64,000 nucleotides of DNA from assembly GCA_004293045.1 (NCBI GenBank), contig RDXY01000006.1:1-64000 (forward strand), in the 5' to 3' direction. Under the pieces are notes generated by a model. That model made no database searches. It was not told the origin of the DNA and worked only from the letters and a program-made list of their open reading frames with translations. Below are positions 49,152-51,849 of this stretch, piece after piece. The translations under genes were made by a program, and so were the position numbers. The first letter of the stretch is position 1. Each line of letters starts with the position of its first letter. The DNA is from Flavobacteriia bacterium (GTDB lineage Bacteria; Bacteroidota; Bacteroidia; Flavobacteriales; Flavobacteriaceae).

Positions 49152-49562
49152 ATGAATATGACAAAAAAAGAAGTAACCAAATTATCTTTCGAAATTACTG
49201 GATTTGCAATAAAAGTTCATAAAAACCTTGGTCCAGGGTTACTTGAAAGTGTTTATGAGCAATGCTTAAAGTTTGAGTTAGAAAGGAATGGTTATGATGT
49301 AAAACAACAAGTTGTTGTTAAAATTGAATATGATGATTTGGAACTTGAATCAACATTAAGAATTGATTTATTGGTAAACGATACTGTAATTATAGAATTA
49401 AAAACAGTTGAAAGTATTTTGCCCATTCACGAAGCACAACTTTTAACTTATATGAAATTATTAGAAAAACCTCAAGGATTGCTGATAAATTTCTACACAA
49501 CAAATATTACAAAATCTTTGAAACCATTTGTGAATGAATATTTTTCAAGACTTGATGACTAA
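49152..49562 (+). CDS. GxxExxY family protein
   Basis: 136 residues. The family signature is GPGLLESVYEQCLKFEL (about 27-43), followed by a PD-(D/E)XK-nuclease-like core with RIDLLVNDTVIIELKTVE (about 75-92), in which D, E and K are in the usual order. The biological role of these common proteins is not established. It is inserted between hemA and hemC, framed by perfect 20-bp inverted repeats and with its own -7 box. It is not needed for heme synthesis, so this looks like a mobile or accessory insertion. A second in-frame ATG lies two codons in. Confidence 0.9.
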   Translation: MNMTKKEVTKLSFEITGFAIKVHKNLGPGLLESVYEQCLKFELERNGYDVKQQVVVKIEYDDLELESTLRIDLLVNDTVIIELKTVESILPIHEAQLLTYMKLLEKPQGLLINFYTTNITKSLKPFVNEYFSRLDD

Positions 49563-49607: not shown

Positions 49608-50534
49608 GTGAGTAAAACCATACGAATAGGAACACGCGATAGCGAATTAGCCCTTTGGCAAGCCAAAACAGTTGAAAAACAGTTGAATGATTTGGGCTAT
49701 AATACAGAAATTATCGCAGTAAAATCCGATGGCGATATTGTTTTAGACAAACCCTTATACGAATTAGGAATTACCGGAATTTTTACAAAAACGTTAGATG
49801 TAGCAATGATTCAAGGCAAAATTGACATGGCAGTACATTCTATGAAAGATGTGCCAACACTTTTACCTATTGGTATTGTACAAGGCGCCGTTTTGGAAAG
49901 AGCATCAGCATTTGATATTTTGGTTTACAAAGAAAATTTAGAGTTCTTAAACGAAGAAAACGCTTCAATTGCGAGTAGTAGCTTGCGAAGAAAAGCAAGT
50001 TGGTTGCACAAATACCCAAGTCATAAAATAGAAGATATTCGTGGTAATGTAAATACGCGCCTGCAGAAAGTAGCTGATTCAAATTGGGGCGGCGCTATTT
50101 TTGCAGAAGCCGGTTTAGATCGCATCCACTTAAAACCAGAAAAAGCAATTCTTTTAGATTGGATGATTCCTGCACCCGCTCAAGGGGCTATGGTAGTGGT
50201 ATGTAATGCAGAGGATTTCTTTTCTTTAGATGCCGTTTCGCAATTAAATCATATTGAAACAGAAATATGTACGTATATAGAACGTCAGTTTTTAAGAACG
50301 TTAGAAGGAGGTTGTACAGCACCAATTGGAGCAATTGCTACGTATAATGAAAAAGAAGATGTAATTGATTTTACAGGTGTTTTATTATCAATAGACGGAA
50401 AACAAAAATTAGAAGTTACTAAAACCGTAGCGGTTTCGGAATGGAAAAAATTAGGATTTCATGCCGCTCAAGAAATTTTGAGTAATGGTGGCGAATCCAT
50501 AATGTTGTCCATTAAAAACGAAATAAAAAAATAG
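49608..50534 (+). CDS. hemC: Hydroxymethylbilane synthase
   Basis: 308 residues from a GTG start (GTGAGTAAAACC), which gives the normal N-terminus SKTIRIGTRDSELALWQAK. It polymerises four porphobilinogens. Marks are HSMKDVPT (about 80-87), SLRRKASWLHKYPS, DIRGNVNTRLQKV and the dipyrromethane-cofactor cysteine in LRTLEGGCTAPIGA (about residue 243). It belongs to the plus-strand heme operon. Confidence 0.97.
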   Translation: MSKTIRIGTRDSELALWQAKTVEKQLNDLGYNTEIIAVKSDGDIVLDKPLYELGITGIFTKTLDVAMIQGKIDMAVHSMKDVPTLLPIGIVQGAVLERASAFDILVYKENLEFLNEENASIASSSLRRKASWLHKYPSHKIEDIRGNVNTRLQKVADSNWGGAIFAEAGLDRIHLKPEKAILLDWMIPAPAQGAMVVVCNAEDFFSLDAVSQLNHIETEICTYIERQFLRTLEGGCTAPIGAIATYNEKEDVIDFTGVLLSIDGKQKLEVTKTVAVSEWKKLGFHAAQEILSNGGESIMLSIKNEIKK

Positions 50535-50542
50535 TATCTTTG
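50535..50542 (+). promoter_or_regulatory. -7 box abutting the kinase-like gene
   Basis: TATCTTTG starts directly after the hemC stop and ends one base before the ATG at 50543. A transcript starting 5-7 bases later would lack that ATG but would carry the ATG at 50565 of the overlapping 49-codon ORF. No -33 TTG at normal spacing (one is 27 bases away). Confidence 0.4.
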
Positions 50543-51172
50543 ATGAATTTTAAAGCAATAAAAGATGAAATCCAAAATATCATTTACGGAAAGAGCGGAA
50601 ATAGCCCAAAAACTCTTATCCGAACAATTGCCGATTACCTTAGAGCAAGCGAAAGAGCAAGCACTTTGGTTAAAAAAGATAAGCAATACAAACAAGAAGA
50701 AACTAAGAAATTAATTGAATTTTGTAACCAAAATAACCTTTGGGTAAACGAAAAAGTTAATTTTGATTTATTTGTTTCTGAAGGAGCTGAGCAAAAAGTG
50801 TATATTAAAAACAACACAACAGTTTTTAAACTTAATGATGCTATATATTATGAATCGTGGGAAGATTATTTAATTAATTTACAAATTAATAATTATTTTT
50901 TTCCTGACACTACCTATACTTTAGTGGGTTTTTGCTTGATTGATGAAATCTTTTATGCTTTGTTAGAACAACCATTTGTTACGGCTAATGAGTCAACAGA
51001 TTTAGAAAAAGTCGCTGAGTTTATGTTGGAAAACGGTTTTGAAAATACAAGAAATCACGATTATTTTAATTCTGAATTAGGTATCATTTTAGAGGACTTA
51101 CATGATGAAAACGTATTAACCAAAGATGGAGTTTTATATTTTATTGACACTGTTTTTTATCTCAAATCATGA
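50543..51172 (+). CDS. Polyvalent-protein-type kinase-like protein
   Basis: 209 residues from ATG 50543; the ORF track begins one codon earlier at TTG. The C-terminal 130 residues look like a compact protein-kinase-like fold: VSEGAEQKVYIKNN as nucleotide loop, VFKLNDAIYYESWEDYL, LEDLHDENVL as a catalytic-loop-like D/N motif (about 185-194) and LYFIDTVF in the DFG position. This agrees with the 'putative polyvalent protein kinase' family usually found in conjugative elements and phages. Here it sits between hemC and hemD, and its TGA overlaps the hemD start in ATGA. Function is unknown. A second ORF overlaps its first 50 codons. Confidence 0.8.
   Translation: MNFKAIKDEIQNIIYGKSGNSPKTLIRTIADYLRASERASTLVKKDKQYKQEETKKLIEFCNQNNLWVNEKVNFDLFVSEGAEQKVYIKNNTTVFKLNDAIYYESWEDYLINLQINNYFFPDTTYTLVGFCLIDEIFYALLEQPFVTANESTDLEKVAEFMLENGFENTRNHDYFNSELGIILEDLHDENVLTKDGVLYFIDTVFYLKS
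50565..50714 (+). CDS. Overlapping 49-residue ORF inside the kinase-like gene
   Basis: In another frame than the kinase-like gene, ATG 50565 opens 49 codons: KSKISFTERAEIAQKLLSEQ, then LPITLEQAKEQALWLKKIS and a basic end. The sequence looks like a real small helical protein (amphipathic helix, LPIT cap, second helix with WL). It begins 22 bases after a TATCTTTG box. It is below the ORF-track size. An antitoxin-like or small regulatory protein is possible; its family is not identified. Confidence 0.45.
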   Translation: MKSKISFTERAEIAQKLLSEQLPITLEQAKEQALWLKKISNTNKKKLRN

Positions 51173-51849
51173 CAAATCAAACCGCAATACTTTCTACCAA
51201 AATACTTTCGCCAATTCAAAAACAAGAATTAGTTAAAGCGAATATTAAAGTAATAGAAACAGATTTTATTAAAACAGAAAACGCTGCTTTCGAAATAAAA
51301 AATCTGAACAAAAATTTGATTTTTACGAGTCAAAACGCAGTTTTAAGCATTTTGCAACACCCAACAATTGAGCAATTAAAACAGAAAACCGTTTTTTGTG
51401 TCGGATTAAAAACTAAAGAGTTATTAAACGAAAATGGTTTTACAGTAGAAGCGTACACCGGTTTTGCAGAAGATTTAGCGGAAATTATTACATTGGTCTA
51501 TTCCGATGAAAGTTTTACTTTTTTTAGTGGCAATCTTCGTAAAGCTACCTTGCCAGAAATGTTAACTGAAAACGAAATTATTTTCAATGAAATTAAAGTG
51601 TACGATACAACGTTAACACCTCATAAAATTTCAGATAAAGTAGACGGGATTTTGTTTTTCAGCCCATCTGCCGTAACCAGTTATTTGAAAAAAAACACAC
51701 TTGGCAACGAAAAATTATTTTGTATAGGCAATACAACTGCCGATGCTTTAAGAGCGGTATTGTCTGAAACTAAAATTAAAAATATAAAAACAGCATATCA
51801 ACCAAGTATTGAAAACGTAATAGAATTAGCAATAAGCCATATGCAGTAA
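51169..51849 (+). CDS. hemD: Uroporphyrinogen-III synthase
   Basis: 226 residues. The family is poorly conserved, but two alternating alpha/beta domains, LIFTSQNAVLSIL (about 44-56), FCVGLKTKELLNENGF (about 75-90) and DGILFFSPSAVTSYL (about 157-171) fit HemD. It cyclises hydroxymethylbilane to uroporphyrinogen III. Its ATG overlaps the stop of the kinase-like gene. Confidence 0.93.
   Translation: MTNQTAILSTKILSPIQKQELVKANIKVIETDFIKTENAAFEIKNLNKNLIFTSQNAVLSILQHPTIEQLKQKTVFCVGLKTKELLNENGFTVEAYTGFAEDLAEIITLVYSDESFTFFSGNLRKATLPEMLTENEIIFNEIKVYDTTLTPHKISDKVDGILFFSPSAVTSYLKKNTLGNEKLFCIGNTTADALRAVLSETKIKNIKTAYQPSIENVIELAISHMQ

Follow-up and report, generated by a model that had tools for sequence, protein, structure and literature searches.

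A small gene nested out of frame in Kinase-PolyVal genes of Bacteroidota, a candidate antitoxin encoded within its effector gene

Among type II toxin-antitoxin modules, HipBA and HipBST have kinases as toxins. The locus described here resembles them in that a small partner accompanies a predicted kinase-fold effector, the module is mobile and patchily distributed, and the effector is lost more often than the partner. It differs in that the effector gene contains the partner gene, in another frame, and that the partner shows no sequence relation to known antitoxins. Lambda Rz/Rz1 and Bacillus subtilis srfAB/comS are nested out-of-frame gene pairs, and share with this locus that the whole coding sequence of a small functional protein lies within a second gene, in a different frame. 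The two products of Rz/Rz1 act together, a further likeness to the arrangement proposed below. However, Rz/Rz1 is a lysis pair and srfAB/comS involves an unrelated regulator, and in neither is a kinase paired with a restraint-like protein that survives its loss. Nested genes are known, and so are kinase toxins, but to our knowledge their joint occurrence at one fixed site throughout a protein family is new. A toxin gene that physically contained its own antidote would be a layout that we know from no other toxin-antitoxin or defence system. A search of the open-access literature for nested antitoxins, or for the small protein itself, found nothing.

The Kinase-PolyVal family was described in 2017 as part of the conflicts between phages, plasmids and their hosts (Iyer et al., 2017, PMC5512222). 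Its members retain the active-site residues and have lost the C-terminal lobe; they carry a glutamate in the Gly-loop and a glutamine that closes the N-lobe (PMC5512222). Within the window, i.e. the whole 64,000-nucleotide stretch of DNA analysed, which is Flavobacterium-like, a stand-alone member of 209 amino acids and predicted effector is encoded at 50543-51172 on the forward strand, with its ATG at 50543 and a TGA stop at 51170-51172. It matches PF18762 with 215 bits (cut-off 27; E 7e-64) over residues 50-208, which places the catalytic domain, as far as it is matched by Pfam, at 50690-51166 (forward strand). The conserved residues comprise the Gly-loop GAEQKVY, E83, K96, Q143, D185, H187 and N190 (EDLHDEN), and D202 (FIDT), and hence the glutamate, the glutamine and the active site of the family. 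The AlphaFold2 model (pLDDT 87.8) displays an N-terminal helical extension and a kinase fold that has no C-lobe. Fold matches to CK2 and Legionella Lpg2603 in the PDB are weak, and those to viral PolyVal kinases in BFVD are stronger. The published family description mentions no nested gene (PMC5512222); all intact close relatives of the window kinase and 33 of 34 divergent members have one.

This nested gene is a 49-codon open reading frame at 50565-50714 on the forward strand, with an ATG at 50565 and a TAA stop at 50712-50714. The initial annotation of the DNA had reported it with exactly these coordinates, and on re-reading it lies in the +1 frame relative to the kinase gene. The name Nip (nested in PolyVal kinase) is proposed here for the 49-residue product. 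AlphaFold2 predicts a two-helix hairpin (residues 7-20 and 26-39) followed by a basic tail, with a pLDDT of 87.6. The overlap falls mainly in the helical N-terminal extension of the kinase and reaches about eight codons into the Pfam domain. Pfam, NCBIfam and PADLOC contain no model for the small protein and gave no significant match, known antitoxin families included, the TIGR02574 match of one small-protein member having an E value of 0.026; neither a sequence nor a fold match was found in the PDB. No RNA element was recognized by Rfam. Directly 3′ of the upstream gene, and abutting the kinase ATG, is TATCTTTG (50535-50542, forward strand), which fits the Bacteroidota −7 promoter box TAnnTTTG. 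The upstream gene, an open reading frame at 49608-50534 (forward strand), we take to be of the hemC type from its own sequence and its position beside hemD. The hemD gene (51169-51849, forward strand; PF02602, E 2e-27) follows on the other side, its ATG overlapping the kinase stop codon as ATGA.

Kinase homologues were gathered by tblastn-type and profile searches, homologues of the small open reading frame were searched for independently, and both frames were read. This gave 74 distinct loci, mostly from Flavobacterium, with others from Pedobacter, one Cytophagales MAG and other Bacteroidota. The start, the length of about 49 codons and the stop of the small frame are retained in some 70 of them; one locus (L133) has a GTG start, and a few have longer or shorter C-termini. 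It had been suggested at the outset that homologues with a broken or startless second frame would refute the overlapping pair; a single locus of the 74, L142, has no standard start (ATG changed to ATA), and there the kinase is broken as well. The consensus of the small protein is MNYKISFQERAKLGMExLSKQxPVTLExARxQAxxLKxxSxSKxKKQRx. It includes a conserved lysine-rich tail (K45, K46) and conserved S6, S19, T25 and S40.

Substitutions in 11 independent close pairs fall unevenly between the two frames. Those that change the kinase and are silent in the small protein occur at 3.15 times the expected number, those silent in the kinase that change the small protein at 0.63 times, and those altering both proteins at 0.36 times; stops in the kinase frame number none against 4.9 expected. 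From these ratios the small protein is under strong purifying selection, stronger than that on the kinase N-terminus over the shared bases, and the kinase N-terminus is constrained weakly, yet really. If the kinase protein is held fixed and synonymous codons are randomized, the +1 frame stays open across 47 codons with a mean probability of 0.075 per locus. Conversely, fixing the small protein leaves the kinase frame open with a probability of 0.004 per locus; it is actually open in 44 loci. In addition, at all 44 of these the AT of the small ATG belongs to a kinase codon of the form xAT; comparable downstream codons have this form in 76%. The initial annotation had proposed an overlapping two-gene module in which the kinase-like frame is a true N-terminus, and had called for a selection analysis of both frames. 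Homologue conservation, substitution classes and codon shuffles all bear out two coding frames, and on this comparative evidence the nested gene can be regarded as established.

The two genes are lost asymmetrically. All 44 intact kinases of the close set are accompanied by the small frame, with L093 scored as intact by length although its final 15 residues are frameshifted; Flavobacterium aquatile LMG 4008 (L027) is one carrier of an intact module. At the remaining 30 loci of the 74, stops or frameshifts interrupt the kinase frame or no kinase frame is left, and 29 of these 30 keep the small frame intact; over the shared bases, 15 loci carry 44 kinase-frame stops in total and none has an internal stop in the small frame. 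Small frames that stand without a kinase are still constrained, with omega of about 0.06-0.2 in the closest pairs and a median of 0.2 where dS between the pair is below 1.5. On a tree of the overlap the kinase has to switch 16 times between the intact and the broken state, at least seven of the switches being forced by well-supported branches, with the tree drawn from 138 columns and many of its forks left open. Among 396 Bacteroidota genomes, PF18762 is found in 12 and the small frame in 13, with both in 10. Of the two genomes with a kinase only, G310 holds a decayed pair, and G404 a frameshifted kinase together with an intact, divergent small frame. The close set thus displays what is looked for in toxin-antitoxin pairs, i.e. 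no intact effector without its partner, and partners without an effector.

Eight loci without a recognizable kinase (L119, L120, L128, L130, L131, L133, L134 and L135) belong to one Flavobacterium lineage in which the small frame is under purifying selection. At L164 (G231 C2:201446) the small frame has no stop and continues into a 242-codon open frame. By eye the long frame has the look of a signal peptide and a parvulin-like protein, and is perhaps a young stop-loss fusion.

The divergent set comes from PF18762 searches of viral contigs and, within the same phylum, of a different family and order. An ATG-started open reading frame of 42-89 codons is found in the +1 frame at the same place in 33 of 34 kinases, that of the window included, and in the +2 frame in none of the 34. 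These frames end 20-130 nt before the Gly-loop codon, mostly at 65-110 nt. When the kinases are grouped into 14 clusters at 50% identity, each represented by its least favourable member, 13 have the nested frame versus 4.2 expected from codon shuffles (P ~9e-8). Across five close pairs of divergent members, substitutions that change the kinase and are silent in the small protein number 55 against 27 expected, with no stops in the small frame against 7.2 expected. A pattern, K/R-x-P-x-S/T...Q...L, recurs in the divergent small proteins, whose matches to PHROG families are weak and to entries of unknown function (best E 0.002). A profile comparison with the Flavobacterium type of small protein gave a probability of 66% (P 5e-5), which is suggestive of common descent but is not proof. 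In viral contig L196 the kinase begins a polyvalent protein of 447 amino acids, and the nested frame is intact. Perhaps Kinase-PolyVal genes throughout the family, in Bacteroidota chromosomes, giant polyvalent proteins and viral contigs, hide a cognate antitoxin in the +1 frame at a fixed site before the ATP-binding loop; we place this generalization a little short of an even chance.

Several members of the divergent set have individual features. In L221, L223, L229 and L233 the nested +1 frame lies deep within polyvalent open frames of more than 1000 codons, and in L221 and L229 a TAnnTTTG-like box stands about 20 nt before the nested ATG, within the long coding frame. The kinase subgroup of L217 and L219 has a nested frame (MEEKLSRLYLRDGQNALRYVQ...) that is quite different in sequence and unchanged in position. 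L240 (G745 C34) is the sole Kinase-PolyVal gene of the set with no nested frame at the expected place.

Promoter and start signals described here are matches to consensus and context, and are to be read as predictions. TAnnTTTG occurs 17-30 nt 5′ of the small ATG in 57 of the 74 loci, against a background of about 0.03 per interval searched. In Flavobacterium johnsoniae this box ends at −5 (PMC6847099). By that rule, the transcript in the window would start at ~50547, past the kinase ATG and 18 nt 5′ of the small ATG. The initial annotation had noted a box so close to the kinase ATG that a transcript from it would serve the small gene first, and this geometry proves to be conserved. Nearly all kinases start either 7 nt (21 loci) or 19-22 nt (22 loci) before the small ATG. 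In the latter class the kinase ATG is at, or slightly 5′ of, the predicted transcript start, and thus the kinase would need upstream read-through or leaderless translation. An A at −3 is a positive determinant in Flavobacterium (PMC6847099); 41 of 44 small starts have it, versus 7 of 44 kinase starts, which usually have T, and the small protein is therefore expected in excess. The layout, an overlapping small partner and effector with one box (by consensus match) before both starts, is one found in toxin-antitoxin modules. A sigma70 consensus scan showed no excess, as expected for this phylum. In a few polyvalent genes the nested frame has neither a promoter-like box nor an A at −3.

With confidence only slightly above even, the locus is interpreted here as a conflict module of about 640 bp and two genes: a Kinase-PolyVal effector, and a nested cognate restraint of 49 residues that is antitoxin-like. 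We infer an antitoxin role for Nip from the asymmetry of loss and the expression signals, as the small frame is never absent from an intact kinase of the close set, outlives the kinase and has the stronger signals. The asymmetric losses agree with a toxin-antitoxin or a kinase-regulator role. In the window and its hem-operon relatives, the internal-promoter transcript from ~50547, which does not include the kinase ATG, would yield the small protein alone, and read-through from the hem operon would yield both proteins. Nip, made in excess, would bind the kinase and hold it inactive; if the supply of Nip failed, or on a trigger such as an infecting phage, the kinase would be released and would phosphorylate proteins of the cell. 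Nesting may safeguard the pair, since many mutations that kill the restraint would also strike the kinase, and recombination cannot part the two. As the antitoxin of a long-dead toxin should decay, and small-only lineages keep the frame under selection, the small protein may have a further job besides restraint.

Other readings have to be weighed against restraint. A chance open frame in AT-rich DNA is conceivable at any single locus, where codon shuffles leave the +1 frame open in 1-31% of cases, but it is contradicted by conservation, selection and recurrence across the family and retains a negligible probability; conservation, substitution classes and codon shuffles together rule it out. 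A small toxin with the kinase as its antitoxin, as in type VII pairs, is ruled out by survival of the small frame where the kinase is broken. It is very improbable that the small frame tunes kinase translation, through a peptide of immaterial sequence, as a leader or coupling frame or as the opening segment of a −1 frameshift fusion. In favour of such a role, the small frame of the window contains the slippery sequence A AAA AAG, and the distance from the kinase start to the small ATG is 7-22 nt. However, any slippery heptamer is found in just 13 of 44 loci and that of the window in only 2, so a programmed −1 fusion into the kinase is rejected; the kinase N-terminus has an open frame and a start codon of its own, and the amino acid sequence of the small protein is strongly conserved even where there is no kinase. 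Purifying selection in the kinase-less loci largely refutes a leader or frameshift role.

The main rival to restraint is that Nip is a true nested gene product with its own main function, e.g. a small regulator or a host-factor binder and no kinase inhibitor, with the kinase a travelling accessory that is often lost. The persistence of small-only lineages under purifying selection speaks for it, as do the better conservation of the small frame relative to the kinase N-terminus and the conserved K45 and K46 of the tail. It is nevertheless considered unlikely, though by no means negligible, given that no intact kinase of the close set is without the small frame, and that nesting at a fixed place across highly divergent kinases points to partnership. 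The own-function and restraint readings would be reconciled if the small protein protected against an incoming sister module. Less probable still is that the small protein serves the kinase as activator, adaptor or substrate in a defence system and does not inhibit it. Strict co-occurrence with intact kinases, a common promoter geometry and the conserved Ser/Thr residues S6, S19, T25 and S40 are compatible with such a role, yet an activator or substrate would have no reason to outlast the kinase, as the small frame does in broken-kinase loci, and its stronger start context suits a restraint made in excess.

The findings add an unannotated gene to the kinase family described in 2017 and supply a candidate partner for it. 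Should the small protein neutralize the kinase, toxin and antitoxin would be encoded by the same stretch of DNA in a self-contained design, and whoever expresses a PolyVal kinase gene would unwittingly express the antidote as well. More generally, same-strand nested genes, which gene callers overlook, can stay stable in bacteria over long evolutionary times.

The module is found in many unrelated genomic contexts, typically as a single copy per genome. When flanks of unrelated loci were compared for an associated mobile element, nothing was common to them but the module itself. Sequenced phages and plasmids gave no match to the kinase or to the small frame; viral contigs with relatives numbered four in a first scan, and three more were added by later scans. 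In a clade of about ten loci the module is fixed between hemC and hemD. Many relatives that do not have the module show the hemC stop overlapping the hemD ATG (TAATG), which indicates that the module entered this junction precisely. The hem operon of the window also carries another small gene of mobile type: a GxxExxY-type PDDEXK_3 gene (PF13366, E 1e-38) at 49152-49562, between hemA and hemC. Among the hem loci compared, this insertion is present in the window genome only.
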